From: a virus
Virus record (IMG/VR): IMGVR_UViG_3300042375_000563
Location: 1-42,902 of that record
DNA: 42,902 bases
Reading direction: 5' to 3' (one strand)
Shown here: positions 15,915 to 40,398 of the stretch, piece after piece
Position numbering within the stretch: position 1 is the first letter of the stretch
Layout of the letters: each line of letters starts with the position of its first letter
The notes under the pieces: model-generated
Seen by the model: only the letters and a program-made list of their open reading frames with translations
Told to the model about the DNA's origin: nothing
Databases searched by the model: none
Made by a program: the position numbers and the translations under genes

Positions 15915-15943
15915 TTGACACTACGGTTGACGGGCCTTAATGG
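15915..15943 (+). promoter_or_regulatory. Possible early promoter, TTGACA-17-TAATGG
   Basis: A consensus TTGACA at 15915-15920 is followed after 17 bases by TAATGG. The form TTGACA-17-TAAT is the same as in the capsid promoter on the other strand at 7039. It is 47 bases upstream of the first rightward gene. The -10 hexamer is weak. Confidence 0.42.
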
Positions 15944-15990
15944 CGATGAGGCGGCACCGAGCCGCACCGAGTGGAAAAGGAACCGAGAAA

Positions 15991-16245
15991 ATGAATACGA
16001 ACATCACCCCGCACGTTGCGCTGACGATCCTCACCCCCGACACGGTGGCTGAATGCTGGAACGGCGTGTTCAGCTTTGGCAATCTGTACGAAGCCCTTTG
16101 GTCTTGCGTCCCGGCTTACACGGCACCCTCGCCCGAGGAAAGCGAAGAACCTTGCTACGGCATGGATTGCGTCGCCGACTTCTGGGGCCGCTTCACGCCC
16201 GAGCAGCAGGCCAAGCTTAACGAGCTCGCCGAGCTCAACGCCTGA
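15991..16245 (+). CDS. Small early protein, function unknown
   Basis: 84 residues from the ATG at 15991, which has AAGGA nine bases upstream; an earlier in-frame ATG lacks such a site. The product is acidic with LTILTPDTVAECWNGVFSFG, three cysteines and a helical C-terminus (TPEQQAKLNELAELNA). It is the first gene after the divergent promoter region, where phages keep host-takeover genes. I do not recognise the family. A tetraloop hairpin follows it. Confidence 0.6.
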   Translation: MNTNITPHVALTILTPDTVAECWNGVFSFGNLYEALWSCVPAYTAPSPEESEEPCYGMDCVADFWGRFTPEQQAKLNELAELNA

Positions 16246-16251
16246 TCAACC

Positions 16252-16271
16252 GGGGCGGCTCAGGTCGCCCC
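16252..16271 (+). other. Hairpin with TCAG loop between early genes
   Basis: GGGGCGGC pairs with GTCGCCCC (one G-U pair) around TCAG, six bases after the first early gene. No T-run follows. Its stem is close to that of the UUCG hairpin at 4598. Confidence 0.6.
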
Positions 16272-16294
16272 ACATCATCGAAGGGAACCACACC

Positions 16295-16492
16295 ATGAAC
16301 GCAACACTCACCCTGACCGAAGAACAGCTTGAGATCATGCTCCAAGCATTGAACGCCCGCGATTGCCAACTGCGTTACCGCACCGCGCCGGGCGACGCGC
16401 GCCGGTCGGCTTTACCCATCATCGAAGGCATACACAGAAGGGCTGCCGACGCGCTTACCGCGATCTATGCCGCTCGCCGCAACGCCGCCTGA
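16295..16492 (+). CDS. Small early protein, function unknown
   Basis: 65 residues from the ATG at 16295, preceded by AAGGGAACCACACC. It is helical: NATLTLTEEQLEIMLQALNARDCQ, then an Arg-rich turn and IIEGIHRRAADALTAIYAARR. No family recognised. The leader ending ACCACACC-ATG resembles those of the next two genes, so the three early genes seem to share a leader design, each after a hairpin or gap. Confidence 0.58.
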   Translation: MNATLTLTEEQLEIMLQALNARDCQLRYRTAPGDARRSALPIIEGIHRRAADALTAIYAARRNAA

Positions 16493-16514
16493 TTCAGAGA
16501 GAGGAACCAACACC

Positions 16515-16724
16515 ATGACACGCAAGGACTACATCCTAATCGCCGACGCGATCCGCCAGTTGCTGGCCGACATTGACCGGGAGCCGGCTGGCATGCGCGA
16601 GGTGTTAACCGGGGAGCGTATCGGCGTCCGTAGCGTGGCGCTGCGGCTGGCCGACCAGTTGCGGCAAGACAACCCCCGATTTGACCGCACCCGGTTTATC
16701 GAGGCTTGCGGGCTGACAGCCTAA
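16515..16724 (+). CDS. Small early protein, function unknown
   Basis: 69 residues from the ATG at 16515, with AGAGAGGAACCAACACC ahead; the frame is open further back but without a ribosome site. The sequence TRKDYILIADAIRQLLADID, then GVRSVALRLADQLRQDNPRFD and RFIEACGL, is of a kind often seen in small genes of alphaproteobacterial phages and plasmids. Predicted helical. Function unknown. Confidence 0.62.
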   Translation: MTRKDYILIADAIRQLLADIDREPAGMREVLTGERIGVRSVALRLADQLRQDNPRFDRTRFIEACGLTA

Positions 16725-16731
16725 TCACACC

Positions 16732-16753
16732 GGGGGAGGCTTAGGCTTCCCCC
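16732..16753 (+). other. Hairpin with TTAG loop after the third early gene
   Basis: GGGGGAGGC pairs with GCTTCCCCC (one G-U pair) around TTAG, eight bases after the stop codon. No T-run follows. It is the second tetraloop hairpin of this type among the early genes. Confidence 0.6.
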
Positions 16754-16758
16754 ACACC

Positions 16759-16848
16759 TTAACCCGTTTGGTTAAAGCCACACAGAGAAACGAACCATAG
16801 GCAATCTTAACCCTTTCGGTTAAGCCTAAAGAGGAAAACGAACCATGA
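16759..16848 (+). repeat. Duplicated hairpin-plus-ribosome-site leader
   Basis: Two 42-base copies (16759-16800 and 16807-16848) each hold a TTAACC...GGTTAA hairpin, a purine-rich ribosome site and ACGAACCAT. The second copy leads to the ATG of the 96-residue gene; the first ends in CCATAG with no gene after it. It looks like the leader of a lost or replaced gene. Confidence 0.6.
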
Positions 16849-17135
16849 CCCACTACATCGGCACGATCTATTTTCTGGGCAGCTATCGCCCCCTCTACGT
16901 CGAGGGAGCCACGGCGGAAGCTGTGTTTCTGCAAATGGAGCGCCGCGCCCGTGAAGCCCCGCCAGAGGCCCTAGAACGGCTGCTAGAGCTTCGCTTGAGG
17001 TACAACCCTCGCTACACCTCGCAAAGCATCGAGCATGGTTCCTACGGGGCCTGTGTGCGCATGGCCGACGCGCCAGCCCTGCCACCGGCTCTATGGGACT
17101 CCATGCCCCCATGCCCCGGCCTGATCTATAACTGA
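16845..17135 (+). CDS. Small early protein, function unknown
   Basis: 96 residues. An N-terminal beta part (HYIGTIYFLGSYRPLYVEGA) is followed by a helical Arg/Glu-rich centre (QMERRAREAPPEALERLLELRLRYNP) and a Pro-rich end. GAGGAAAACGAACC precedes the ATG, directly after the duplicated leader. A strong terminator follows the gene, so it closes the first early unit. No family recognised. Confidence 0.58.
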   Translation: MTHYIGTIYFLGSYRPLYVEGATAEAVFLQMERRAREAPPEALERLLELRLRYNPRYTSQSIEHGSYGACVRMADAPALPPALWDSMPPCPGLIYN

Positions 17136-17156: not shown

Positions 17157-17186
17157 AGCCCGCCCTAACCCGGCGGGCTTTTCTTT
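17157..17186 (+). terminator. Rho-independent terminator closing the first early unit
   Basis: AGCCCGCC (17157-17164) pairs with GGCGGGCT (17172-17179) around a 7-base loop, followed by TTTTCTTT. It lies 21 bases after the stop of the 96-residue gene. Confidence 0.82.
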
Positions 17187-17862
17187 GCCCGCTCCCGGCC
17201 CGCCAGAGGCACCGCACAGAGCCGCCAGCGCCTGTTTGGCACCCAGGGCCGCCCCTAGCGCCCGGACGCGCTGAGAGAGCCTTAAACCCGGCCATGCACC
17301 CGGCGCATATCTCCCGGCACAGAGCCTATCCGCCTGCCCAATTTACAGCGGCGGTTTAACGCTGAGCCTATCTGTGATGAAACAGAGCAAGCGCTTGAAA
17401 ACAAAAGCGGAATCGTTGTTTTGAAACAGGTTTTGCCATTTTGAAACACCCCCTGTTTCAGTTTAAGTCATTGAAAACCTTCCCCTTTCTTATATATATC
17501 TATATATGAAACAGAAATATAATATATATATCCCCCTAGTTTTTTAGTGTGTTAGTTGAGTAATACACTTATATATATCTCTATATAGGGCTGTATATTT
17601 TCGCATTCTGTTTCACTTTGCCGAATCGGCTTTTGTTTTCATATACATAGGTATGAAACACCCCCTGTTTCACCCTGTTTCACCCCTAGCAATATCAATG
17701 ACTTAGATGAAACACCCTGAAACACTTTTGGTTCATTTCCGGGTTTTTGGCGCGTCCGATTATTACATTTCGGTAATGTGCTGATTTTAGTTTGTGCGGT
17801 CGTAAAATGCGTTTATGGCTGTGTGACGGTTTAACGGAAACCGACAGCGATAGGGGTTTAAT
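17187..17862. other. Long non-coding region, G+C-rich then AT-rich
   Basis: No gene is seen on either strand. Bases 17187-17370 are G+C-rich without clear structure. From about 17380 to 17790 the sequence becomes strongly AT-rich, with TATATATAT tracts near 17490-17580, and holds the repeats annotated separately. Small inverted repeats stand near 17759-17776 (ATTAC...GTAAT) and 17827-17843 (CGGTTT AACGG AAACCG) just before the next gene. Confidence 0.6.
17378..17724. repeat. Cluster of eleven TGAAACA sites; candidate replication origin or operator
   Basis: The 7-mer TGAAACA occurs on the plus strand at 17378, 17422, 17442, 17507, 17654, 17708 and 17718, and inverted (TGTTTCA) at 17454, 17609, 17666 and 17676. 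Two exact 19-bp inverted repeats TGAAACA-CCCCC-TGTTTCA occur at 17442-17460 and 17654-17672 and flank the most AT-rich part. Iterons around an AT-rich unwinding zone are the usual form of a replication origin; multiple operators for a regulator are the alternative. A terminator precedes it and replication genes follow downstream. Confidence 0.65.
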
Positions 17863-18060
17863 ATGTTTGCTGTTTACGATACGACGAACGCGACCCGCCG
17901 CAGCTTTCGCGCGGCATTTGCGACGTTTGAGGAGGCTTGCGGCTATGTCGAGGCGCTGCATCCGATTTGCTTTGAACGGGACGCGGATCATCCGGGCTGC
18001 GCTGATGCGTATATGCCGGGCGGGATGATCTATGTGATCGAAGCGGAAGTGGCAGCATGA
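17863..18060 (+). CDS. Small conserved phage protein
   Basis: 65 residues, starting MFAVYDTTNATRRSFRAAFA, then a helical FEEACGYVEALHP and a C-terminal strand GGMIYVIEAEV. AGGGG lies just ahead of the ATG. It is the first gene after the putative origin. Its stop overlaps the next start (ATGA). A small alpha/beta protein of unknown role. Confidence 0.6.
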   Translation: MFAVYDTTNATRRSFRAAFATFEEACGYVEALHPICFERDADHPGCADAYMPGGMIYVIEAEVAA

Positions 18061-18794
18061 GCGCGCGGAAACGTCCGATTTGCGGCTACGTCATTTACGA
18101 CGGGCCATCCGCTATTGACGGCGAGCGGATCATTGCGGTTGTTACTGGCATCCGGGGCAGTCGCAACACGAAGACCGGCAAAATGGTTCAGACGTATATC
18201 ATCCGCCCGGATATGCATCCGGTTGATGCGGTGCAGACTGGCGCGGACAAATCGATTTGTGGCGACTGTGTGCATCGCGGCGATGGCACCGGCAATGGTC
18301 GGTCTTGTTATGTGACGCTGATTCACGGGCCTGCGAGCGTCTATAAATCCTACGCGCGCGGCATCTATCCGCTGGCATCGCCTGAGGCGGTTGCGGACGT
18401 TGTCGCGGGTAAGATGGTGCGGCTTGGAACCTATGGCGATCCGGCGGCTGTCCCCATTGCCGTTTGGGAGGCGCTGATTTCGAAAGCGGCGGGATGGACA
18501 GGCTACACGCACCAATGGCGGACGGCGGCGGCGGGCTGGTCGCGGCTTGTGATGGCGAGCGCTGACACACTGGCGGATGCGAAAGCGGCATGGCTGCGCG
18601 GCTATCGCACGTTCCGGGTAGGACAGTCGGCCACGAAGGGGCGCGAGATCAATTGCCCGGCGAGTGAAGAGGCTGGCAAGCGGACGCAATGCGCGGCTTG
18701 CCGGTTGTGCATGGGAGCCACGAGCGGCTCGCCGGTATCGATACAGATAGAGCCGCATGGGGCAGGCGCGAAGCATTATAAGGTGGCAGCATGA
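18057..18794 (+). CDS. Conserved Cys-rich phage protein (DUF7227-like)
   Basis: 245 residues. Characteristic stretches are YDGPSAIDGERIIAVVTGIRG, KTGKMVQTYIIRPDMHPVDAV, CGDCVHRG (C68/C71) with SCYV (C84), and RLGTYGDPAAVP, then TGYTHQW and the C-terminal NCPASEEAGKRTQCAACRLC with four cysteines. I recognise this from a protein family common in phages and some bacterial genomes (I believe DUF7227), with no known function. The cysteine clusters suggest metal or Fe-S binding. It is the largest gene of this small-gene stretch. It overlaps its neighbours on both sides by four bases, so it is part of one translationally coupled operon. Confidence 0.72.
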   Translation: MSARKRPICGYVIYDGPSAIDGERIIAVVTGIRGSRNTKTGKMVQTYIIRPDMHPVDAVQTGADKSICGDCVHRGDGTGNGRSCYVTLIHGPASVYKSYARGIYPLASPEAVADVVAGKMVRLGTYGDPAAVPIAVWEALISKAAGWTGYTHQWRTAAAGWSRLVMASADTLADAKAAWLRGYRTFRVGQSATKGREINCPASEEAGKRTQCAACRLCMGATSGSPVSIQIEPHGAGAKHYKVAA

Positions 18795-20158: not shown

Positions 20159-20277
20159 GCCGCGACCCCAACCGCAGCGGCAAGCGCCGCTTTACCGGCA
20201 TAGGGGCGCTGGCGGCCCTGCTGTTAGTCCTCGCCATCGCTTTCGCGCCGTGGCTATCCGCCATCCCGTACAGATAG
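20152..20277 (+). CDS. 41-residue membrane peptide
   Basis: Opens inside the end of the previous gene. A basic N-terminus (SRDPNRSGKRRFTG) leads to one membrane helix (IGALAALLLVLAIAFAPWLSAI). The stop TAG runs into TAGGAGACTGACCC-ATG, so its end supplies the ribosome site of the next gene. Third of the nested membrane peptides; role unknown. Confidence 0.5.
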   Translation: MVSRDPNRSGKRRFTGIGALAALLLVLAIAFAPWLSAIPYR

Positions 20278-20288
20278 GAGACTGACCC

Positions 20289-20387
20289 ATGACTGATCTG
20301 GAGAAATTGAAGGCCGAACTCGACGCCGCCATTGCCGCCTACCTCGCCACCCTCGCAGCGCAAACTAAGGAGCATAACAATGACTGA
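20289..20387 (+). CDS. 32-residue member of the tandem Ala-rich gene array
   Basis: The product starts MTDLEKLKAELDAAIAAYLA and ends with the array's common AAQTKE segment. AGGAG lies eight bases ahead of the ATG. The stop overlaps the next start by eight bases (ATGACTGA). It is the shortest intact member and looks like the conserved ends with almost no middle. Confidence 0.52.
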   Translation: MTDLEKLKAELDAAIAAYLATLAAQTKEHNND

Positions 20388-20547
20388 ATTAGAGAAACTG
20401 AAGGCTGCACGGGATGCCGCACTCGCAGCCCACTACGCCGCAACCATCGCCGCCGCCGCCGCCCGCGACGCCTCCGCCGCTTACGACGCCGCCATTGCCG
20501 CCTACCTCACCGCCCTCGCAGCGCAAGAGAAGGAGACCGACCAATGA
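20380..20547 (+). CDS. 55-residue member of the tandem Ala-rich gene array
   Basis: N-terminus MTELEKLKAARDAALAAHYA, a middle of almost pure Ala/Asp helix, then AAIAAYLTALAAQEKETDQ at the end, nearly the same as the end of the previous gene. AAGGAG in the previous gene's end serves as ribosome site. A single long helix is predicted, probably a coiled coil or helix bundle; function unknown. Confidence 0.58.
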   Translation: MTELEKLKAARDAALAAHYAATIAAAAARDASAAYDAAIAAYLTALAAQEKETDQ

Positions 20548-20732
20548 CTGAGATTGAGAGATTGACCGCCGCTCGGGACGCCGCATTGGACGCCGCATAC
20601 GCCGCCATAGACGCCGCATACGCCGCATGGGACGCCGCCATAGACGCCGCCAATGCTGACCGGGACGCCGACGCCAACAAGGTTTATAACGCCGCCATTG
20701 CAGCGCAAACTAAGGAGCAGACCGATGACTGA
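20544..20732 (+). CDS. 62-residue member of the tandem Ala-rich gene array, with DAAYAA repeats
   Basis: Starts MTEIERLTAARDAALDAAYA and continues in imperfect repeats of (I/W)DAAYAA and DAAIDAA, ending AAIAAQTKEQTDD. Start and stop lie in the common junction sequence. Like its neighbours it should be one long Ala-rich helix. Confidence 0.58.
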   Translation: MTEIERLTAARDAALDAAYAAIDAAYAAWDAAIDAANADRDADANKVYNAAIAAQTKEQTDD

Positions 20733-20763
20733 GATCGGGAGACTGCGCGGGAAAGAAGTGTGA
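20725..20763 (+). pseudogene. 12-codon remnant of an array gene
   Basis: The usual junction is followed by ATGACTGAGATCGGGAGACT, which codes MTEIGRLRGKEV and then a stop. It keeps the array's N-terminus and little more. The stop overlaps the ATG of the next gene (TGATG), so it may still act as a leader peptide that couples translation. Confidence 0.5.
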
Positions 20764-20963: not shown

Positions 20964-21156
20964 GACAGAGAGATTGAAGGTAGCGGCGCGTGATATGCTG
21001 AGGGCGGAAGGCGAGCGCCGGGCAACGGCTGCGATTGTGGCGGACTTGCGGGCGATGAGTGCGCTTTATAGCACCGGGCTACCGAGCGTTTTAGCGGCCC
21101 GCTATGAAACTGGCGAACACCTCGCAGCGAAAGAACAGGAAACCCCCAATGAGTAA
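20956..21156 (+). CDS. 66-residue last member of the array
   Basis: Begins MTETERLKVAARDMLRAEGE, related to the other array N-termini, continues with ATAAIVADLRAMSALYSTG, and ends LAAKEQETPNE, a diverged form of the common C-terminus. AAGGAG lies in the previous gene's end. The helix is less Ala-rich and more varied than in the other members. Confidence 0.58.
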   Translation: MTETERLKVAARDMLRAEGERRATAAIVADLRAMSALYSTGLPSVLAARYETGEHLAAKEQETPNE

Positions 21157-21161
21157 TTCAC

Positions 21162-21410
21162 ATGGCCAAGCGCATCATGGACTACGAGATCGACCCGCTA
21201 TTCAGGACGCCGGGGTTGCCTCGCATCCTGCAATTGCGACAGATCAGGGAGCAGACCTACATGACCCCCGGCGAGCGGCGCGAATTGAAGCGGCTGGAGG
21301 AGACGCAGCAGACGATGGAGTTTTTGTTTCATCGTCACAAGCGCGTGTCCGCGAGGCGGAAGCAGAAGACGCAGCCCAGCTCGCAGGACGGCAGTTATAC
21401 TGGGTCATGA
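21162..21410 (+). CDS. Small basic protein, function unknown
   Basis: 82 residues with PLFRTPGLPRILQLRQIREQ, then MTPGERRELKRLEETQQTMEFLF and a very basic, probably disordered C-terminus (HRHKRVSARRKQKTQ). It may bind nucleic acid. The stop overlaps the ATG of the HTH gene by four bases, so the two are coupled. No family recognised. Confidence 0.58.
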   Translation: MAKRIMDYEIDPLFRTPGLPRILQLRQIREQTYMTPGERRELKRLEETQQTMEFLFHRHKRVSARRKQKTQPSSQDGSYTGS

Positions 21411-21727
21411 TAGCTGACGCCTATTTGACTGGAAAACAGACGATGAGAGAACTTGCGATTGAAAATGGCATCTCGGTGTTCACCGTGCGCGATTACGTTC
21501 ATTCGCGCCGAGCTACATTCGCATTGGATCACCAGAAGCGACCGCTTGGAACGCGCCGGAACCGTGACCATGAGCCATCGCTCGTTCAGGGTGCGTATGG
21601 AACCGGAGGCTCCATGACGGATGACTCTGTGCGTAGGGCTACGCGAGAACTTGAGCGTAAAATTGTGGCCGGGTTGGCGAAGCGGGGGTTTGCACCTCTG
21701 CCATTTAACAGGGAAGACGCCGCATGA
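21407..21727 (+). CDS. Helix-turn-helix DNA-binding protein
   Basis: 106 residues from the ATG at 21407 (ATGA overlap with the previous stop). Residues about 13-35 (MRELAIENGISVFTVRDYV) form a typical helix-turn-helix, with the turn Gly at the expected place. The rest is basic and Arg-rich (HQKRPLGTRRNRDHE), ending in a second helical part (VRRATRELERKIVAGLAKRG). It is the only clear HTH regulator-type protein in the early region, so a role in gene control, perhaps on the TGAAACA sites, is a possible inference. The family is not clear. Confidence 0.6.
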   Translation: MIADAYLTGKQTMRELAIENGISVFTVRDYVHSRRATFALDHQKRPLGTRRNRDHEPSLVQGAYGTGGSMTDDSVRRATRELERKIVAGLAKRGFAPLPFNREDAA

Positions 21728-22878: not shown

Positions 22879-23271
22879 ATGACCGGGAACTGTGGCGCTG
22901 TCCAAGGCTTGCCTAAAAACCACAGGAGCAGTGGGGCGCAGTCGTCCCCGCGACCACCCGCTGCATCCGTCAATGCCCGGTCATATTCCATTCGTGACAT
23001 CAAGGATCGCCTGAGCGCGTCTCACATCGAGGCGTTGTGCCGGGACTGGTTGCCGGGAGGCAAGCGGCAGGGCGGTTGGTATTTGGCTTGTGCACCGTGG
23101 CGCGAAGACCGCAACCCCTCGCTGGGCGTATCGTTCAGCACCGGGCGTTGGCAGGACTTCGCGACGGGCGAGAAGGGCGACATGATTGATCTATCGATGA
23201 AGCTGTTTGGCGATAGCCTGCAAGACACGCTCAAGGGATTTGCTGAAATGCTTGGGCTGTCCCATGCGTAA
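22879..23271 (+). CDS. Primase N-terminal (zinc-finger-like) domain protein
   Basis: 130 residues. After a disordered Ser/Pro-rich N-terminus (about 1-35), the part from about 38 on (SIRDIKDRLSASHIEALCRDWLPGGKRQG) leads to WYLACAPWREDRNPSLGVSF and TGRWQDFATGEKGDMIDL. This follows the layout of the CHC2-type primase domain (CPFHxxxxPS, then the GxxGD motif), but most zinc ligands are missing: only one Cys remains in the first pair, and the second pair is replaced by DFATGE. It overlaps the TOPRIM gene by eight bases, and the two together would make a whole primase-helicase. AAGGGG lies 11 bases ahead of the ATG. Confidence 0.68.
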   Translation: MTGNCGAVQGLPKNHRSSGAQSSPRPPAASVNARSYSIRDIKDRLSASHIEALCRDWLPGGKRQGGWYLACAPWREDRNPSLGVSFSTGRWQDFATGEKGDMIDLSMKLFGDSLQDTLKGFAEMLGLSHA

Positions 23272-25678
23272 GGTGGATCTGCGCGCGCTCGTGCCGGAAG
23301 ACGTTACCGACCAGCCGGCTATTGTCACGCCTATGCCTGAGCCTGTGGCGGTGCCGTCCTCGTTGATCAGGTCAATGGGCGGCGAACCGGACACCATGTG
23401 GGTATACCGCATGGCAGACGGCGGCGCGTTCGGCGCGGTGGCGCGGTGGAACCCTCCGACTGGCCGCAAGGAGATCAGGCCGATCATCTGGGACGGGACG
23501 AAGTTTCTGACCGCTGGGTTCGGTAAGTCGCGCCCGCTATATAACGGCGACTTACTGGCGGCTTCACCCGCCGCGCCCGTGCTGATCGTCGAGGGCGAGA
23601 AGGCTGCCGATGGTGCAGCGCAATATGTGCCTGAGGGCTGGGTTATTACGACATGGCAGGGCGGCGCGAAGGCTGTCGAGCAGACGGACTGGAGCCTGTT
23701 GGCTGGGCATGCCTGCGTAGTGTGGCCGGACAACGACACGCCGGGCATTGAGGCTGCGCTTGATATTCAGAGGATACTGGGTGAGCATCGCGTGGCGGTG
23801 TCGATTGTGTCTCTGAGCCCTGTGTTCTCGGACGGATGGGATCTGGGCGACGCGCTGCCTGCGAAGGTGAAGTCGCAGAACGTGACGGAGATCCTGCGGC
23901 GCGAGTTGAAGCGGGCGGCGGTGCCTGAGATGATTGTTGAGAACCTGCAGCCAGAAGATCGGGCTGATCTCGACGAGGAGACGGCTCGCGAATGGCGCCC
24001 GCTGGGGCATGATCACAACAAATATATGCTGATGTTGCAGAACCAGCAGCAGGTGATTGTATTCGAGCCAGACCGGCTGATGAGCCAGAAGGGTTGCTTG
24101 AACGTCTATGGCGACATCAACCACTGGGGGCGTCTTCAAGGTAAGGACGATGGCAAGGGCATTGACTGGCTACAGTCGGGCGTAATGCTGATGGAGCAGT
24201 GCCACAAGGTTGGGGTGTATGATCCGACCCGACTGCGGGGCCGGGGCATCTGGCTGGACAAGGACAGTAAGGATGACCCAAGGGCCATACTTAATTCTGG
24301 GAATAAACTCTTGGTCAGCAGACCAGACATGGAGACGCGGGAAATCTCGCACGTTCGACTTAAGAGCGGCTGGATATATGAGAAGGGCCGCGACCTGATC
24401 TTGAACGTCGACAATTTCGATGGCCGCGCGACGGACGATGATGGCCGCATGATCCGCGAACTGTGTGGCAGGGTGCGGTGGGATGCGCCTGTCTATGGCG
24501 ACTTGCTGGCGGGGTGGATTGCGACGGCTGTGGTGTGCGGCGGACTGGACTGGCGAACCCACGCATGGGTCACGGGCAATCAGGGCTCCGGGAAATCGAC
24601 AGTGGTGAACACGGTGGCCGGCGCCTGCCTTGGGGATCTGGCTATCTATCCGCTGGGGGCAACGACTGAGGCCGGCATTCGGCAGGTGGTGCAGAACGAC
24701 GCTATGCCCGTGGTGTTCGACGAAGCGGAAGGCGATGACAAAGAGAACAAGATGGCTGCTGCGGCGCGACGCAAGGCTGTGCTTGACCTGATGAGGCAGG
24801 CGTCCAGCGAGGGTCGAGGTCGCATCCTGAAGGGCTCGGCGAACCATCAGGCCCGGGCGTTTACCATGCGGTCGTCGTTCCTGATGTCGTCGATTGGTGT
24901 TGGCCTCAAGGAAGCTGCCGACCTGACGCGAACGGCGGTGCTGACGATCAAACCGCTGGACTCTTTCACGTATGAGGAGCGACAGCAGAAGGAGTCGGAG
25001 TTCAAGGACTTCGTGGCGCTTGCCGCGTCGATACCTAGAGATATGCCGCAGCGCCTGCTGGGTCGCCAGTTGCACAACCTGTTTACGCTGCGCCACAACA
25101 TCTTGGTCTTCAAGGAGACCATTGCCACGGTGCTGGCTAACCGCCGCATCGGCGACCAGCTAGGCACGTTGATGGCCGGGTGTCACAGCCTCTACAGCAC
25201 AAACCGCTTGGACATGGCGCAGTGCGAGAAGTATCTGAACAGCATCAACCTAGATGAGTTTCTGCAGGTTAAAGCGGAACGTGAGGACAAGGTCTTGCTC
25301 GACCATATCGTGCAGACGCCAATTCGGGTTGAGACCATGCACGGGGTTCAGGATCGAACCATCGGCGAGCTCATGGTGATCTGCTTTGAGTTGGATGAGG
25401 ACGCGGATGTGCGGATGAAAACCGCGGATGACACGCTGGCTCGGCACGGGCTGAAGGTTGAATACGAATATGGCACGCCGACAGGTGTTTGGATTGGTCA
25501 GAGCATCTCCGGGATGAACAAGATCATGCAGACATCGGTTTACTACGAAGGCTGGGCTGGGGTTTTGTTGCGCCATCCGCATGCGAAGAAGGGCCAGAAC
25601 GCAGTGCGCTTCAAGGGAACCATGTCGCGGGCAATTTTTCTACCAAAACAGGAGTGGCCAGTAGGGTTATGGGGATAA
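23264..25678 (+). CDS. Replicative primase-helicase (TOPRIM plus P-loop ATPase)
   Basis: 804 residues from the ATG at 23264; the frame is open further back but would overlap the previous gene. A TOPRIM domain is clear: VLIVEGEKAADG (E110) and VVWPDNDTPGIEAA (D156/D158). A long linker follows, then a helicase-type ATPase with Walker A GNQGSGKST (438-446), Walker B PVVFDEAEGD (482-491), and a downstream stretch with SSEGRGRILKGSANHQ. The C-terminal 250 residues are helical. It would synthesise primers and unwind DNA at the phage fork. The zinc-finger-like part is in the separate gene just upstream. Without a phage DNA polymerase in view, host polymerase may be used. Confidence 0.82.
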   Translation: MRKVDLRALVPEDVTDQPAIVTPMPEPVAVPSSLIRSMGGEPDTMWVYRMADGGAFGAVARWNPPTGRKEIRPIIWDGTKFLTAGFGKSRPLYNGDLLAASPAAPVLIVEGEKAADGAAQYVPEGWVITTWQGGAKAVEQTDWSLLAGHACVVWPDNDTPGIEAALDIQRILGEHRVAVSIVSLSPVFSDGWDLGDALPAKVKSQNVTEILRRELKRAAVPEMIVENLQPEDRADLDEETAREWRPLGHDHNKYMLMLQNQQQVIVFEPDRLMSQKGCLNVYGDINHWGRLQGKDDGKGIDWLQSGVMLMEQCHKVGVYDPTRLRGRGIWLDKDSKDDPRAILNSGNKLLVSRPDMETREISHVRLKSGWIYEKGRDLILNVDNFDGRATDDDGRMIRELCGRVRWDAPVYGDLLAGWIATAVVCGGLDWRTHAWVTGNQGSGKSTVVNTVAGACLGDLAIYPLGATTEAGIRQVVQNDAMPVVFDEAEGDDKENKMAAAARRKAVLDLMRQASSEGRGRILKGSANHQARAFTMRSSFLMSSIGVGLKEAADLTRTAVLTIKPLDSFTYEERQQKESEFKDFVALAASIPRDMPQRLLGRQLHNLFTLRHNILVFKETIATVLANRRIGDQLGTLMAGCHSLYSTNRLDMAQCEKYLNSINLDEFLQVKAEREDKVLLDHIVQTPIRVETMHGVQDRTIGELMVICFELDEDADVRMKTADDTLARHGLKVEYEYGTPTGVWIGQSISGMNKIMQTSVYYEGWAGVLLRHPHAKKGQNAVRFKGTMSRAIFLPKQEWPVGLWG

Positions 25679-25842
25679 TTAAGAAAACGAGCAGCGTCGA
25701 CATGGCGCGCAAGATGGTGCGCGAGTGGCCTGACGCAACGCTGATGGAGCGGGATCCATTTGAGTTGACATATACCTACGGCGTAAGCCGGTCGGAGGCT
25801 GACAAGATAATCAAAGACGAACGCTATCGCCGTAATTTATAA
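25669..25842 (+). CDS. 57-residue protein following the primase-helicase gene
   Basis: Starts at the ATG at 25669, within the last codons of the primase-helicase gene. MGIIKKTSSVDMARKMVREW is followed by MERDPFELTYTYGVSRSEAD, whose helix-turn-helix-like YGVSRSEADKIIKDE could bind DNA. It is probably translated together with the helicase. The family is not recognised. Confidence 0.52.
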   Translation: MGIIKKTSSVDMARKMVREWPDATLMERDPFELTYTYGVSRSEADKIIKDERYRRNL

Positions 25843-31588: not shown

Positions 31589-31614
31589 GCAGGCGACCTT
31601 ATCGGGTCGCCTGC
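31589..31614. terminator. Bidirectional hairpin between converging genes
   Basis: GCAGGCGACC (31589-31598) pairs fully with GGTCGCCTGC (31605-31614) around TTATCG, nine bases after the ssb stop. On the minus strand the TAA stop of the 2159-residue gene is in the loop, and the stem codes its last residues. No T-run is present on either side, so termination strength is uncertain. Confidence 0.6.
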
Positions 31615-34600
31615 TCCACCTGATTATAGATGCGGTTGAAGCGCACGAACTCACCGTCAATGCGCTCCCGAAGAACCTCAAGGCGCTCCGCTTTCGCGCC
31701 TTCATCCATGTCCAAGCCCTGAATGCGCTTGCGTTCTTTGTTCAGCGCAAGAACCGCAGAGCGGGCGCTGGTCAAAGCGGTTTGAATGCGAGGGCTGGTT
31801 TCTACCGGGAACTTCTCCCTAAGCGCCAGCCTCTCAGTCCCCGTCAAATCTTTCATCTGCTGGTTCACGACGCGCGCCTGCTCTTCGCGCTCGTAATACT
31901 CCCCAACATTCCTGCCTTTGCTCGGTTGACCAGCAAGACGGCGAACCACGGGGGCTGATCCAAGTTCACCCTCGGTCCCTGTTCGATAGAGAGACTTGGC
32001 GAGATTGCTGACACCGCCAAAAGAGAACTCTAGGAGGTATTCAAAACTCTCAGGGGGAGTGTTGAGGTTACCCTTCACCTTGCCCTCTCCGCCGCTGATG
32101 TCGTTCAGCAACTGGGCCAGTTCCTTGTAACCTTCCCATGTGTTGAAACGAGCCACGGAGGCGTAGGACTGCCCCTTGTCGAACGGCTCATTGTAGATCG
32201 GCTTGCCCATAAAGTTCTCGTTGAGCATGAGTTCAACGAACGGCTTGAGCATGGTCGGCGTTGCGGCCCGGGCAACGGAACTTGGAATATTGCCGGCGCC
32301 AAATTGCATTGGGGAGAAGTTGCCAAGCGCAGCGGTCACAATGTCGATACCGGCGGCACCAAGATCGTCACCACGGCGGGCGGCGTCCATCGTGCGGGTT
32401 GCTAGATACGGGAAGAAGCCGAAGCCATAGGGCATAGGGATCTTCACGTAAGTCTTGCCGTCAACCGGGTTCATGATGATAAGGTTGCGCTCTTTCTCGT
32501 AGTCCGGGATCTTGTCCCAGAAGAGCTTGCCATCATCGTCTTCGTCAGACATGGAGGCATTAGCAGCCGCGAGCGTGGCAGCCGTGGCTATCATGCCGAG
32601 TAGCGCAGCCTGCGTCGAGGACAGCTTGCCGGTCTTGAACGGGTTGTTCGACAGAGCGCGGGCCGTGCGGACGCTGCCCTGAATGCCGGCATTGAAGAAC
32701 GCGTAGAGCGCGTTCAGCATAGCACCAGCTTCGCCGCGCCGGTTGAAGTCCACGGTCGCCTCACGCGAGATCATGGCCGCCTGCTCGCGGGTCATGTCGA
32801 CATCAATCGCGGCGCGATAAGCGGCGAAGCGGATACCGTTCTCGAAGATGGCGTTGGTGCTTTCCAGAGCCCCGACCATAGCGCGGAAGCCCTTGCTTGT
32901 AGGCGACCATACGGCGTCAATGGCCTGCTTGGCGGTGCGGGCATCTTTCAGGTCTTGCAAGCTGTCGTTGACCGTCTTCAGGTCTTTCTGGATTTGAGCG
33001 GCAGCCTCCTGCGGCGTCTCGCGCTGCGCCCATGACACCGATCCGCCGTCCAGCTTGAACTGTTCGTACTGTTTGCGCAGTGCAGGATCTCCTCCCTCAC
33101 GGCCATACTCGAACGCGGCAATAGTGCGGAACGCTTTCTTGTCCCTAACGTTCTTGCCGAAAGCCTTGGCCAAACCGGGCGCGTCAGCCGCAAGGTTCAT
33201 CGCCGCAGACTGCAGATCGCGGAAGATGTTTGGCACAAAGAAGTCAGGGTTCGCCGTTGTGAACGAGCGCGACAGCAGGCGCGTTGCCTTGTTTGAAAGC
33301 TGCAAGAGCACCCCCATCTGGGGCGCATTCAGGTTCTTCGCGGCCTTCGCCAGCAGCGGATCGTTGATGCGCAGGTAGAACGTCTCTCCGCCGCGCTTCA
33401 CGATCATGAAGTTGTCATCCTTGGGGGACGGACGTTGAATGTTTCCATTCCGGTCGCGCGGCGGGTTCTTATAGCTAAACACTTTCCACGAATCGGATGG
33501 GTTATCGATAAAGAAATTCATCAACTTTTGGCCGACGCGATTACGCTCTCCACGGACAACAGAGGTGCCAACGTCGGAGATGAAGGTGCCGAGCGGGGAG
33601 AACGGCAGACCGCTACGCCCGCGCGCTTCGTACCACTCTCGGGTGCTGACGCCGAAGCCAGTGCCGCCATAGCCCATCGAGTCCTCGAAGTTCTCGGCAG
33701 GCTGAGTCAGGTCCTCGTCGACGACGGATCCCTTCATCGGGACGTAGTCAGGTTCCTCTTCAAGCAGCTTTTCACCGGCAGCGCGCGACACGAGGCCGGC
33801 CTTGATGTTGTTTTCCATCCGCTCTTTGTTGGCGCGGTTGAATAGCTCACCAATGCGCTCAAGGGCGGGAGAGTAATCTTGGCCAGCAAAACCATTAAGG
33901 ATGTCGTTTGCCTGCTCCGTTGTGATACCAGAGCCCGCCGTAGGGATCTTGCCTTCTTCGTATGCCTGCTCAATGGCGGCATCAATCTCGTCCTCGGTCG
34001 CCTCGGTCGCCTCCATCTTAGTGCGGATTTCATTCTCCACTTTGGCTTGCAGGCGCGCGTTACGCGCAGGCGCAGCACGGGCATAGAGGTAGCCGTCAAC
34101 CGTAGCTAGATTAAGCCCAGCCTCCTTCATGATCTTCTGAATGGGCAGGAAGTAATCCCGGTCGAACTTCTGCATGAGCTCGCCGGCACGGCTATCGAAC
34201 TTACGGGCAGCCTCGTAAAAGCCCTCAACGCCCGCGCGCAACTGGCCAAGGCTCTGCACAACGCGCAGGCGCTCGAAGCGATCAACCAGCTTGCGGGCAA
34301 AGCCTTGCGGGCGCGTCTCTTTAGGCAACGTGATGCGAGGTTGCGGCGCTGATGGCGGCTGCTGCGGCGGTGAGGGGGTCGCCCCTGACGGCGGAGGAGG
34401 GGCGCGTCCACGCGTTTGCGCGCCACGAGCAAACAAAGTCCCCTGCGCCGGCCCCTGTTTGCCGGAAGGAGGCCCACCCATGATCGCCCTGTAGTCGGCC
34501 TCAGTGGCTTCAAACAGCGGGTTAACGATCTCGATAAGGCGACTGAAAGCAGACGTGTCACCATCAGGGATGCCAAGCAAAGCCTTGAACATCATAACAA

Positions 34601-37600
34601 ACCGCTGGAACAGGTTCTGTCCCGGCCCGACATCGATGCCACGCAGGTACTCCTGCGCATTATCGTTGGTCATACCCCATGTCAGAAACTCGTCGGGGTC
34701 CACGAGCGCGTTGGTGCGCCGTTCACGTATAGACTGCTCGAACTCAGTGAGTTTAGCTCCGGACTTCACACGCTGATTAAAGTGCCTAACGAAAGCGCCA
34801 TACAGATCGTTCAAGTCGCTGACGAACTTTTTCATCTTCGGGGTGACGTTGCGCCCCCTCTTGGCCGCAAGAACGAACGCAGCCGATACAGCGTGCAGCG
34901 CCTCGTGGAGAACGATTTCCGAAGTGTTGCCCGCGCTGTTTTCGCCCGTCGTGGGAGACCGCAGGTATACTTCAATCGTATTGCCATCAAGGTCAGTGAC
35001 GACCGCCCCATACGAACTGCCATAGGCGACTCTCGTCGGAGCGGGGTCCCCCTGTTGAACAATGTTCAGTTTGACCTTGAGCCCAGCGCGCTTAACCTCG
35101 TCCAGAAGCGCAGAGATGCGCCCCGCCAAGTACATGTCGTACTGGCTGAACTTGTTATCGAAGTTGGCAAAAATCTCTTCGAGCAGATCTGGAAGTGTGC
35201 CGTTCCGATATTTGTCGATGTCCATACGAACACCGCCCACGAGCCCGCCGGGTTCCACGCTGGACAGTAAATCTCCCTGATCGCGGCTGGCGTCAAACAT
35301 GCCGCCTTCCTGCTGATCGAAGGATTCCTGATTGCCACGCCGCATCTGCGACTGCTGCAAGCGCGCCTGCATTTCGGCACGCTGGCGTTCGGTCATGCCG
35401 CTCTGCGTGGGCTGAGTAGCCTCTAGTCCAAGAGAGCCTTCTTGGGTCCCCGGAGCAGTGCCCGCAGGTTGTTCGCGGTCCGCTTGGCCTTGGCGCGCGT
35501 CTCCGGGTGCAGCCGCTTGTCCACGGACGCCCGGTTCAGCAAAGCTATCTTCGATATTGGTGACAGGGCCATCAGGGAACTCCTCTTGTCCAGCGTCATA
35601 TTCCGAATAATCACGCGCTTCGGCCATGACTTCTTCAAACTGCGCGTTTACATAATCGACAATGCCCTGCGCCGGGTCGCCGTCATAGCCAATCTGCTCG
35701 GCAATGGCGCGCATGTCGCCGTCGGTCAATTCAACGCCAAGGTTGTTTGCCTCAATGGACACGGACTGCATCGTTGCTTCGAGCCCGTCATCCTCCTGAG
35801 TTTCCTGCTCATAAGCAGCCCCAGTGGTCGGATCGTACAGCGGCGCATTTCTGTTAATCAGATCAGCAAGAGCTTCAGGGTCAAGTCGTCCGTATGAATC
35901 GACTGAATCGCCGAACGCGCCCCAGTCAGAGCCTTGGATTGACGCAGCCAAATCCGCAAAGTCTTTAAGCTTTTCGTCGATCTGGCGGCGGTTCTGAGTA
36001 ACCTTTCCATCTGGGCCACGCGTCAGTTTCTCTTTGCCAAACATGCGACGAAGATCTGCGCGGCTATTCAGCCAATCGGGATCGACACCGTAATTGACGG
36101 CGCTCTCAAAACTGTAGCGGTCTTGGCCCTTCTTAAAGGTCTTCGCGATCTGGGCGATGCGCGCCTGCATCGTGGTCGCAGCCTTAGGAGGACGCGGCGC
36201 TCGGGTGCGAAGTGGCTTGGCGGGCGCGGGCGCGGGCGCGGCAACGACGGCGCCCTCTGGCGTAGGCGCTTCTCGGACTATGGCGACTGGGATTTTTTTA
36301 TAACCGAGCCTAGCTAGGGCATCCATACGGTGGCGCCCCTCCTGTCCGTCATTCCCCGACAGGTCAATCCAAGGGATTTCTTGCAAGCCGTTTTCAGCAA
36401 TGTCCCGCACAAGTTTATCTGTAATACCGGGGCGTTGGGCTTCGGGACTCGGCCTGCCCGTCGCTTGGTGATATTCTTCGGGCGTCATGTAGGCGATGCG
36501 CCGGCCTCTAGCTTCGTGACGCGCAATGCTTTCTGATGCCCCGGGTATCTTCACGGGTGCAGCCACAGGCTCCACGTCGGGCGCGGACGCAGGCGCAGCA
36601 TCAGGCGTGGACGCGGCGGTTGTCGCCCCCTGCCTACGAGCAAACTCGGCCTCAATTTCAGGGCCAAAGTTCGCCCCATACTGTTGAAACTCAAGATCTT
36701 CAGGCGTGTTGCCACGGCCTTCGCCGGCAACGTAGCGATCAACGTAAGTCTCTGGCGTCAACCCAGCGGTCGTTGCCTCCCCCGAAGGCGGTGGCGTAGC
36801 GGTCGTCGTTTCCCCCGAAGGCGGTGGCGTAGCTGCCCCCTGTGATGCCTCCCATTCGTCGCGAGGAACAGACCGAAGGCTGCCATCTGGGCTTTCAATG
36901 ATTACCTGATCATCTTCGATGATAACAGTATCTTCAGTATCCGCGCCGGCAGGGATGTCGGTCTCAGGAGGAACGCCGAAAGGCGTGGCCGGGACGACGG
37001 GCTCAGGCTCAGGCTCCACAGTCGGAGGCGGCGGTGGCGGTGGTGGCGGTGGCTCTGTTCCCGGCGCAGCTTCCGGCCCGCGCAGCCCGCTAATAGCGCC
37101 TGCTCCGCCACCCATCGTACCGCCAAGGATCAGACCAGCAGCCGCGCGACCACCCAGACCTTCCGTCAATGCAACGTTCGGGTCAATAGCCTGCGCGCCG
37201 ATGTTCTCGGCAATGCCCTGACCAGTTTCCTGAACGATCTCGGTGCCGCCTTCACGCACGAGACCCTCGCCTGCACCCCTGACAAGACCGCGGCGCACAC
37301 CACCGGTCAACAGCGCGGCTTCAATTCCAAGCGGGCCTGTAACGGCGGCAATCGGGGCGGCAATCGCAGCGGCACGGCGGGCGGCGGAAATAGCGGCAGT
37401 GTTGCGCGCCTCTTCCGGTGTCGCCCCTTCCGCGAGGGCAGCCTGATATGCACCCGAGCGCGCCAATACTTCCTGCGGCATCTGGCTTACGCGGTCATAC
37501 GTGGACTGCGCAGCATCGCCGGAAACGATAGCCGATTCGCCAGCGGCAGCACCCGCCAGAGCGCCGCGCTTTACTGCCTGCTGACCAATCAGGCGCCCAG

Positions 37601-38078
37601 CCAGAGCGCGACCGGCGAGGCCAGCGCCACCTGTGCCGATCATGGCCGGGAGGGTCTGAGCGACGCCAGCGGCCAGCGACAGGGGATCTGTCAGTAGCTC
37701 TTTGGCCTGCTGCCCAAAGCCGGAGAGAATGCCTTCCTCTTCAGCCTTCGCCACGCGCTCTGCCTGCTGGCGTTGGCGTTCGCGGAATGCCGCAGTCTGG
37801 AGCTCCTCGCCAAACTCTTCGACCGACTTACCAGCGCGAGTGGAAACGTTGTCCATGTCGCCGGTCGCGAGGCCGAAAAGCTGGCCGGGAAGCGAGACAA
37901 TCTGGCCGGCGCCGCGGACGAGAGCACCGCCTACGTCACGGATGACGGAGGTTTCCGCCTTTGGAATGCTCGCGGCATTTGCCTGCACGTATGCGATGGC
38001 ATCCTGTTGGGTCGCCCCTTCAGGTGCCTCCACCTCATACATCGTTCCATCTGGGGATCTAACGCGGAACCTAGCCAT
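31599..38078 (-). CDS. Giant polyvalent virion (ejection-type) protein with metallopeptidase motif and LPD38-like region
   Basis: 2159 residues. After a short N-terminal domain come Ala/Gly-rich, membrane-prone helices (about 130-335) and a Pro-rich linker (343-360). Residues 550-605 look ParB-like (DIAENGLQEIPWI, EGRHRMDALARLGYKKIPVAI). At 1054-1066 EIVLHEALHAVSA carries HEALH, a zinc-metallopeptidase HExxH motif, with DPDEFLTWGMTN (about 1127-1138) a possible third ligand. From about 1250 to the end lies a long helical region; TTANPDFFVPNIFRDLQSAA (1608-1627) recalls the LPD38 domain of phage polyvalent proteins. Such proteins are carried in the head and injected with the DNA. Murein or host-protein cleavage by the peptidase is inference. 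Confidence 0.78.
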   Translation of the reverse strand: MARFRVRSPDGTMYEVEAPEGATQQDAIAYVQANAASIPKAETSVIRDVGGALVRGAGQIVSLPGQLFGLATGDMDNVSTRAGKSVEEFGEELQTAAFRERQRQQAERVAKAEEEGILSGFGQQAKELLTDPLSLAAGVAQTLPAMIGTGGAGLAGRALAGRLIGQQAVKRGALAGAAAGESAIVSGDAAQSTYDRVSQMPQEVLARSGAYQAALAEGATPEEARNTAAISAARRAAAIAAPIAAVTGPLGIEAALLTGGVRRGLVRGAGEGLVREGGTEIVQETGQGIAENIGAQAIDPNVALTEGLGGRAAAGLILGGTMGGGAGAISGLRGPEAAPGTEPPPPPPPPPPTVEPEPEPVVPATPFGVPPETDIPAGADTEDTVIIEDDQVIIESPDGSLRSVPRDEWEASQGAATPPPSGETTTATPPPSGEATTAGLTPETYVDRYVAGEGRGNTPEDLEFQQYGANFGPEIEAEFARRQGATTAASTPDAAPASAPDVEPVAAPVKIPGASESIARHEARGRRIAYMTPEEYHQATGRPSPEAQRPGITDKLVRDIAENGLQEIPWIDLSGNDGQEGRHRMDALARLGYKKIPVAIVREAPTPEGAVVAAPAPAPAKPLRTRAPRPPKAATTMQARIAQIAKTFKKGQDRYSFESAVNYGVDPDWLNSRADLRRMFGKEKLTRGPDGKVTQNRRQIDEKLKDFADLAASIQGSDWGAFGDSVDSYGRLDPEALADLINRNAPLYDPTTGAAYEQETQEDDGLEATMQSVSIEANNLGVELTDGDMRAIAEQIGYDGDPAQGIVDYVNAQFEEVMAEARDYSEYDAGQEEFPDGPVTNIEDSFAEPGVRGQAAAPGDARQGQADREQPAGTAPGTQEGSLGLEATQPTQSGMTERQRAEMQARLQQSQMRRGNQESFDQQEGGMFDASRDQGDLLSSVEPGGLVGGVRMDIDKYRNGTLPDLLEEIFANFDNKFSQYDMYLAGRISALLDEVKRAGLKVKLNIVQQGDPAPTRVAYGSSYGAVVTDLDGNTIEVYLRSPTTGENSAGNTSEIVLHEALHAVSAAFVLAAKRGRNVTPKMKKFVSDLNDLYGAFVRHFNQRVKSGAKLTEFEQSIRERRTNALVDPDEFLTWGMTNDNAQEYLRGIDVGPGQNLFQRFVMMFKALLGIPDGDTSAFSRLIEIVNPLFEATEADYRAIMGGPPSGKQGPAQGTLFARGAQTRGRAPPPPSGATPSPPQQPPSAPQPRITLPKETRPQGFARKLVDRFERLRVVQSLGQLRAGVEGFYEAARKFDSRAGELMQKFDRDYFLPIQKIMKEAGLNLATVDGYLYARAAPARNARLQAKVENEIRTKMEATEATEDEIDAAIEQAYEEGKIPTAGSGITTEQANDILNGFAGQDYSPALERIGELFNRANKERMENNIKAGLVSRAAGEKLLEEEPDYVPMKGSVVDEDLTQPAENFEDSMGYGGTGFGVSTREWYEARGRSGLPFSPLGTFISDVGTSVVRGERNRVGQKLMNFFIDNPSDSWKVFSYKNPPRDRNGNIQRPSPKDDNFMIVKRGGETFYLRINDPLLAKAAKNLNAPQMGVLLQLSNKATRLLSRSFTTANPDFFVPNIFRDLQSAAMNLAADAPGLAKAFGKNVRDKKAFRTIAAFEYGREGGDPALRKQYEQFKLDGGSVSWAQRETPQEAAAQIQKDLKTVNDSLQDLKDARTAKQAIDAVWSPTSKGFRAMVGALESTNAIFENGIRFAAYRAAIDVDMTREQAAMISREATVDFNRRGEAGAMLNALYAFFNAGIQGSVRTARALSNNPFKTGKLSSTQAALLGMIATAATLAAANASMSDEDDDGKLFWDKIPDYEKERNLIIMNPVDGKTYVKIPMPYGFGFFPYLATRTMDAARRGDDLGAAGIDIVTAALGNFSPMQFGAGNIPSSVARAATPTMLKPFVELMLNENFMGKPIYNEPFDKGQSYASVARFNTWEGYKELAQLLNDISGGEGKVKGNLNTPPESFEYLLEFSFGGVSNLAKSLYRTGTEGELGSAPVVRRLAGQPSKGRNVGEYYEREEQARVVNQQMKDLTGTERLALREKFPVETSPRIQTALTSARSAVLALNKERKRIQGLDMDEGAKAERLEVLRERIDGEFVRFNRIYNQVEQATR

Positions 38079-39427: not shown

Positions 39428-40398
39428 CAGCGTACATCCTTCAGCCAGCCGAGCCCGTGCATCGGGTGCTTGATGTTGCGCTTGCCGTCCTTGACGGGGC
39501 TCTCAATCGCGCCACCCTCTTTCTTGAATACGCCGCTAAGCCAGCCGGTTTTCCCGAATGCGCCGCTTGACCCAAGGGCGCCAGCAATCGTCGCCGCCGT
39601 GCCCAGAGCCGAGCCGAAGCCAGACGTACCGGGCTCAGTGCGAATAGCCGTCCCAGCACCTGCCGGCGACGGAACTCCGCCGATACCAGCGAACTGCTGT
39701 ACCTGCGTAAGCGGATAGTCGCGCTGGCGTTGAAAGTCTTCGTAACGCAGATCAGCCGAACGCTGGCCTAGTTCCTGACGCTTCTCACCAATGGACTCAA
39801 GACCAGCCAGTTCGCGGAACCGCTGCTGCTGCGCACTCTCGCCAAGCGCGCCGTATTGCTTCGCACCTTCAAGAGCGCGCCCGGCCTCGGTGCCATACAG
39901 ATCAGCCCCGGTCTTATAGGCGTCGGCCATCGCCTCCATTTGTTTGTTCAGAGTCTGGGCCTGCGTATCCCGGATAGCCCGCTGATTAAATTCAGCGCTG
40001 CGCGAACCGCCAAATGTACCGCCGCCGATAAAGGTGCGATTGATCTGGGGTAGAATGTTCTCAGACAGATTCCTCGCCGCGGCGGTGCCAATCCCAGAAA
40101 CGACGTTCTGGATATATGGGTTCATGTACCGCTGGGCCATGCCCGGATCGGTGAACGAGCCCGTCCCGCGATTGATCGCCTGAGTGGCAGCGTCCACATA
40201 GGGCTGATACGAGCCCATTGTTTGCCTATAGAGGTCGAACGCCTGCTCTTGCTCCTGCTGGAATGGAGCAATGCGAGGCTTGTCATAAGCCTGATATGGG
40301 CCTGAGGTGGCGGCTGAGGCCCGGCCCAAGAGGTCCTTGGCGTACTGGGTGTACCACTCGGGCAGGATGTTCTGCGTCTGGGTAGTTGTCGTTGCCAT
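39427..40398 (-). CDS. Internal virion protein of the gp7/ejection type
   Basis: 323 residues. The N-terminus NILPEWYTQYAKDLLGRASA, then IAPFQQEQEQAFDLYRQTMG, YMNPYIQNVVSGIGTAAARN and FIGGGTFGGSRSAEFNQRAI form a pattern that recurs in internal or injected proteins of many podovirus-like phages. The C-terminal part has a Gly/Ala-rich stretch (about 245-285) and KKEGGAIESPVKDGKRNIKH. Like P22 gp7 it would be ejected with DNA to build a channel; family knowledge, not shown here. It overlaps both neighbours by one base. Confidence 0.65.
   Translation of the reverse strand: MATTTTQTQNILPEWYTQYAKDLLGRASAATSGPYQAYDKPRIAPFQQEQEQAFDLYRQTMGSYQPYVDAATQAINRGTGSFTDPGMAQRYMNPYIQNVVSGIGTAAARNLSENILPQINRTFIGGGTFGGSRSAEFNQRAIRDTQAQTLNKQMEAMADAYKTGADLYGTEAGRALEGAKQYGALGESAQQQRFRELAGLESIGEKRQELGQRSADLRYEDFQRQRDYPLTQVQQFAGIGGVPSPAGAGTAIRTEPGTSGFGSALGTAATIAGALGSSGAFGKTGWLSGVFKKEGGAIESPVKDGKRNIKHPMHGLGWLKDVR

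Follow-up and report, generated by a model that had tools for sequence, protein, structure and literature searches.

The question raised by this locus is why a dense cluster of identical heptamers lies in a non-coding region of a phage genome, and which protein, if any, reads it. The window, by which we mean the whole stretch of DNA analysed, is one IMG/VR phage record of 42,902 bases. It contains 15 copies of TGAAACA (3.6 are expected from shuffles), 11 of which fall within positions 17378-17724, seven of them direct (starting at 17378, 17422, 17442, 17507, 17654, 17708 and 17718) and four inverted (TGTTTCA at 17454, 17609, 17666 and 17676). These strands and positions agree with the initial annotation, and its estimate that chance predicts almost no such sites was borne out: when the 347-base region was shuffled 2000 times with its dinucleotide composition preserved, TGAAACA reached at most two copies (mean 0.09), and no 7-mer with at least three different letters exceeded five. 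The two inverted repeats of the form TGAAACA-CCCCC-TGTTTCA that it reported are both exact, the 19-base sequence TGAAACACCCCCTGTTTCA occurring only at 17442-17460 and 17654-17672.

The sites are arranged in two blocks. The left one (17378-17513) comprises 17378+, 17422+, 17442+, 17454-, and 17507+, and the right one (17609-17735) comprises 17609-, 17654+, 17666-, 17676-, 17708+, 17718+ and a one-mismatch copy, TGGTTCA, at about 17729. Between the inner, mutually inverted iterons 17507(+) and 17609(-) lies a site-free core (17514-17608) with an AT content of 73%, compared to 65% for the array region and 42% for the genome, which we regard as a putative DNA unwinding element. The locus therefore combines a repeat cluster far above chance with an adjoining AT-rich region, as in iteron origins. 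No DnaA box (TTATNCACA) occurs in the window. The right end of the array holds two of the four exact matches to the IHF consensus (WATCARNNNNTTR) found in the window, one on the plus strand at 17693-17705, which is a possible accessory site, and one adjoining the array on the minus strand at 17774-17786; elements of the form TCAnnnnCTTRG, which resemble these matches, adjoin the heptamers in four relatives (L003, L005, L006 and L014).

The same features could be read in another way, namely as a multi-site operator through which a repressor or activator of the phage would control the rightward early operon, with no origin involved. Operators, too, typically contain several heptamers and inverted pairs, and the array is located upstream of the replication operon and behind a terminator-like hairpin (17157-17179, plus strand, from a consensus scan only) that closes a small upstream operon. 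The hairpin is indeed present where a terminator had been reported, but terminator-like matches are no commoner in the window than in shuffles. Moreover, no sigma-70-like promoter was found in or beside the array, and rightward ORFs are already present to the left of it (15940-17135). The HTH protein near 21407 (ORF 21104-21727), suggested earlier as the binder, is without a homologue in all 26 related contigs compared; it is an unlikely binder, because the arrays are general.

Relatives gathered via the terminase and via the primase-helicase allow the array to be followed beyond the window. In nearly all of those with sequence at the syntenic place, an AT-rich island with a heptamer cluster is found there, about 3-4 kb from the terminase. 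The expectation that the same 7-mer would recur holds for the cluster and its locus, but the word itself differs by lineage: TGAAACA in the window, L003, L005 and L024; TGAAACG mixed with TGTCACA in L006, L007 and L014; TAAAACR/TCATACR (TMAWACR) in L016, L020 and L127; TGTCACR in L029, L034, L050 and others; and TGTAACA in L069, L077, L083, L087 and L092. In L081 and L090 the AT island is present, with no clear word. Judging by these sequences, the array appears to be a fixed device with a lineage-dependent recognition word. A second recurrent word, approximately GGCGGATTTCTGCGGGTTT, is found amid the heptamers of TGTAACA/TGTGACG relatives (L064, L069, L083, L087) and is absent from the window.

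An alignment-based scan extended this comparison to phages whose primase-helicases are only 25-35% identical, and in many of them the best heptamer cluster starts right 3' of the primase-helicase gene. The words have drifted further, to CGTAAGA in 12 copies (L155, L157, L160, L191), CGTAACA (L145, L150, L153, L154), CCTAACA (L163, L170), TCTTACA (L147), TGTAACA (L183), GTCAACA (L190) and more. Two cultured phages belong to this set: Bdellovibrio phage phi1422 carries 11 copies of GGTAACA in a 337-base gap 3' of a putative primase, at 14.0-14.3 kb, and Acinetobacter phage Acjo_20 carries nine copies of TGTAACA immediately 5' of the primase-helicase gene, at 3.1-3.4 kb. In a blind scan of 64 primase-helicase loci, non-redundant at 80% identity, two-strand clusters of exactly repeated heptamers were detected in half (32), with a score that is uncorrected for the number of 7-mers but whose threshold of 7, once corrected, still has a margin of about three orders of magnitude; among the other 32, without detectable array, several loci are incomplete, and the scan needs exact repeats. 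Fourteen of the 32 arrays lie between -100 and +700 bases of the primase-helicase stop codon, where 1.6 are expected. In the window the array does not adjoin the gene but lies 5.5 kb upstream of it, so that the placement of the origin directly behind the gene, as in SaPIbov1 Rep and Cch, is seen in these 14 distant relatives and not in the window.

The layout of the arrays is more constant than their words. In 34 arrays the site-free gap has a median of 104.5 bp centre to centre (interquartile range 93-109), compared to 68 bp expected for random placement (combined P 5e-16), its edge sites are mutually inverted in 27, and its AT content is 63%, versus 56% in the remaining array and 46% in the genome; the gap of the window, from iteron 17507 to iteron 17609, is not significant alone (P 0.10). 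A 6+6 arrangement of sites is seen in several arrays. As to full mirror symmetry, the test reaches significance in phi1422 (P 0.001) and some others, but the overall signal is weak (Fisher P 0.0013), and we do not claim strict symmetry, the value for the window being P 0.61. An empty, AT-rich core of about 104 bp is unusual for operators, and in the distant relatives the array follows the stop codon of the primase-helicase. We therefore consider the operator reading unlikely. Of the two possibilities raised by the initial annotation, the iteron origin is well supported by the conserved cluster, the drifting motif and a primase-helicase of the self-loading initiator type, while the operator is the weaker. 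The origin reading also withstands two of the refuting conditions that the annotation named, since relatives do carry clusters and the skew minimum does not lie elsewhere.

The putative initiator is encoded by ORF 23264-25678 (plus strand), which matches no Pfam family at the usual thresholds. It is preceded by, and overlaps with, an ORF for the CHC2 zinc-finger subunit or domain of the primase (22879-23271, plus strand; PF01807, 1.8e-07). In a structure predicted from 64 sequences (mean pLDDT 86), residues 25-219 match a T7 gp4-like TOPRIM primase domain (Z 13.7), and residues 244-804 align with the AAA+ helicase Cch of SCCmec (5dgk; Z 15.1 over 420 residues); according to Foldseek, the helicase part also matches SaPIbov1 Rep (8tch, E 1.6e-7). 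The predicted model thus places the window protein within the Cch/Rep helicase fold; no match to Pfam DUF927 was found at E<=1, a missed sequence match that is compatible with membership in that family. The C-terminal domain (residues 673-804; 25280-25678, plus strand), folded alone, has a pLDDT of 95.8 and gives no Foldseek matches at E<=0.001. When chains were realigned by VIA, its best match was SaPIbov1 Rep 453-558, with a weak Z of 5.4, followed by other winged-helix DNA binders. This predicted fold suggests a winged-helix-like domain, which we propose as the reader of the iterons.

A natural exchange bears on this proposal. Over the larger part of the replication operon, genomes G002 (word TGAAACR) and G012/G013 (TAAAACR/TCATACR) share 90-100% identity, but the value is only 74% for the primase-helicase and 58% and 71-74% for two small ORFs 3' of it; a third small ORF, upstream of the primase-helicase, is missing, and genes near the origin island differ as well. 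Within the primase-helicase, residues 1-220 keep 90-100% identity and the remainder, its C-terminal three quarters, only 40-90%, with a sharp breakpoint at residue ~220, where the TOPRIM domain gives way to the helicase part, in the pair L014 and L115 (G002 and G013). The drop indicates that recombination replaced the helicase part together with the two small ORFs behind it. In the origin, the flanks of the sites align, and all five alignable sites have lost the G at position 2. Since the word changes, the layout stays and the primase-helicase changes along, the latter is probably the word reader. Whereas the initial annotation recognised no initiator among known families, the primase-helicase is recognisable as one by its fold and by this covariation.

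Mantel tests within the clade, with P values uncorrected for the number of domains, point to the same part of the protein: the distance between C-terminal domains correlates with the distance between words (r 0.37, P 0.008; partial on TOPRIM 0.36, P 0.004), while the AAA+ domain shows no correlation (0.20, P 0.14). The middle domain (residues 240-372) comes near the C-terminal value (r 0.35, P 0.018), but it probably does not read the word, since G002 and L006 have a word in common and are only 50-65% identical there; their C-terminal domains are 85-98% identical. In the segment NKIMQTSVYYEGWA (residues 752-765; 25517-25558, plus strand), residues 753, 757 and 761 vary with the motif class. 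The seven TGAAAC phages compared all have K-T-Y at these positions, whereas the three TMAWAC phages have R-A-H or R-S-H and the TGTCAC phages R-T-F. Judged from the alignment, these are candidates for specificity residues, no more.

The covariation alone does not single out the primase-helicase, because the small ORFs p25489 and p25893 were swapped along with it in one recombination block. The locus could thus be an origin whose binder is a small co-inherited DNA-binding protein that recruits the helicase, such as the product of ORF 25489-25842, whose identity is 58% between G002 and G013 and 95% between G002 and L006, and the last ~57 residues of which look HTH-like by eye. However, homologues of this ORF turned up in closer relatives only, whereas arrays accompany primase-helicases at 25-35% identity, and the primase-helicase has its own predicted winged-helix domain, with SaPIbov1 Rep as the nearest structure. 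A scan of viral contigs with the small ORF 3' of the primase-helicase found no relatives. We regard such a binder as improbable, somewhat more so than an operator. Finally, a partition centromere or a packaging (pac/cos) site is the least probable reading: TGAAACA is half of the bacterial parS palindrome TGTTTCACGTGAAACA, and in the window clade about 2 kb separate the island from the terminase genes, but the 16-bp palindrome was not found in the window, no ParA/ParB pair was seen in a non-exhaustive scan of proteins, the heptamer drifts to words unlike parS (CGTAAGA, CCTAACA, GTCTGCA), and in distant relatives the array follows the primase-helicase rather than the terminase.

We consider it likely that the cluster is a theta-type iteron origin, the heptamers of which are read by the phage primase-helicase. 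Computation shows the array, its conservation and its conserved core, a protein fold of the initiator type, and a motif that changes jointly with the protein. In the mechanism we propose, primase-helicase subunits, together with the CHC2 zinc-finger protein, would bind TGAAACA through the C-terminal winged-helix domain and assemble as helicase rings on both iteron blocks; the rings would melt the AT-rich core of about 100 bp, and the primase-helicase would load itself onto the single strands and prime synthesis, after which a host DNA polymerase would copy the genome. A search of the window and six related records for DNA polymerases of the A, B and Pol III-alpha families found none; hence the phages probably use a host polymerase and need a helicase-loading route. 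Binding, melting, ring loading, fork direction and the use of the host polymerase are what we infer here, and the step with two hexamers is drawn by analogy, because mirror symmetry is significant in some arrays only. It is tempting, if rather speculative, to consider a large class of origins in tailed phages that has so far escaped recognition. In such origins about 6+6 heptamers round a core of ~100 bp would seat two rings of a TOPRIM-fused initiator resembling Cch and SaPI Rep; the recognition code would be readable, with residues ~753-761 of the winged helix choosing the bases at heptamer positions 2-4, and the domain and the word would move together by recombination.

Among known systems, the closest kin by predicted protein fold appears to be the Rep-ori of SaPI (SaPIbov1 Rep) and Cch/Cch2 of SCCmec, which share with the modelled window protein the helicase fold and the C-terminal domain. 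SaPI Rep-ori also has multiple short iterons, as in the window phage, and an origin directly behind the gene, as in its distant relatives. On the other hand, the helicase here is fused to a T7-like TOPRIM primase and theirs to an archaeo-eukaryotic one, the window-type primase-helicase resides in full tailed phages and matches no Pfam DUF927, and the origin of the window clade lies about 5 kb upstream of the gene. Phage P4 is similar in repeat style. Its annotated 8-bp type I repeats TGTTCACC resemble TGTTTCA/TGTTACA in look, and the six repeats of ori1 (three, one flipped, a 43-bp step, then two) are like half-arrays such as that of L163; ori1-like spacing occurs in some relatives, while any likeness in the window may be due to chance, and P4, unlike the window phage, divides its sites between ori1 and crr. 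The P4 alpha protein is likewise a primase-helicase with TOPRIM, yet it is a D5-family member (D5_N, Pox_D5, DUF5906) whose alignment with the window family is confined to the surroundings of Walker A (hhalign probability 10%, 33 columns); the window protein has no D5_N or Pox_D5 match, and we reject kinship by sequence. In iteron plasmids and lambda O-type origins the iterons also adjoin an AT-rich region, but their initiators recruit the host helicase DnaB, whereas the candidate initiator described here is itself the helicase. What sets the window system apart is that tailed phages here have a TOPRIM primase fused to a Cch/Rep-like helicase, that the origin is displaced in the window clade and that the heptamers drift.

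The origins of most environmental phages are unknown, and a simple rule for finding them follows from these data: a heptamer array on both strands should adjoin a gene of this primase-helicase family or be linked to one. The rule works in at least one cultured phage, phi1422, in whose genome paper we found no mention of an origin. Because heptamer and protein drift together in nature, matched pairs are already at hand with which origin recognition by an initiator could be measured, and the drift also offers candidate mutually orthogonal replicons.

The GC skew, proposed as a check, gives a cumulative minimum at 17740, by the array. In five further contigs of the window clade the minimum lies in or at the island, and each of the 14 contigs examined shows an upward step of the skew at the array; the window ORFs on either side of the array point the same way. 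In phi1422, however, the minimum falls at a transcription switch, 8 kb from the array. We therefore count the skew as weak support and not as proof of an origin, since it is confounded with transcription.

No close relatives of the window at the DNA level were found among 50,697 phage records. The record is probably incomplete, because close relatives reach 51-59 kb, two of them with end overlaps: G002 (L098-L100) and G011 (L110-L112), of 54,968 and 59,488 bases, both have overlaps of exactly 123 bases, which probably reflects the k-mer of the assembler where contigs are circular. L214, a contig assigned by binning to Sphingomonadales bacterium UBA6174, encodes a 55%-identical TOPRIM stretch of the primase-helicase, a similarity that possibly hints at this host group, although we claim no host. 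ORF 18057-18794, a homologue of which lies between the array and the primase-helicase in many relatives, has a match to phrog_2554 that is confined to the C-terminal half of the latter (positions 286-520 of 529). The region 20210-20740 consists of alanine-rich, repeat-laden small ORFs with 11 ACGCCGC and eight CGGCGTC, and like repeats occur in L003 and L127. On the minus strand, ORF 31599-38078 encodes an apparently multidomain virion-type protein of 2159 amino acids, with a stretch that by eye looks like a ParB-like nuclease, and ORF 40398-42677 is strongly repetitive, with repeats of TLADAERLNPGYQSYSQSPTGQFIG. The left end of the record (1-2000) is also rich in repeats.
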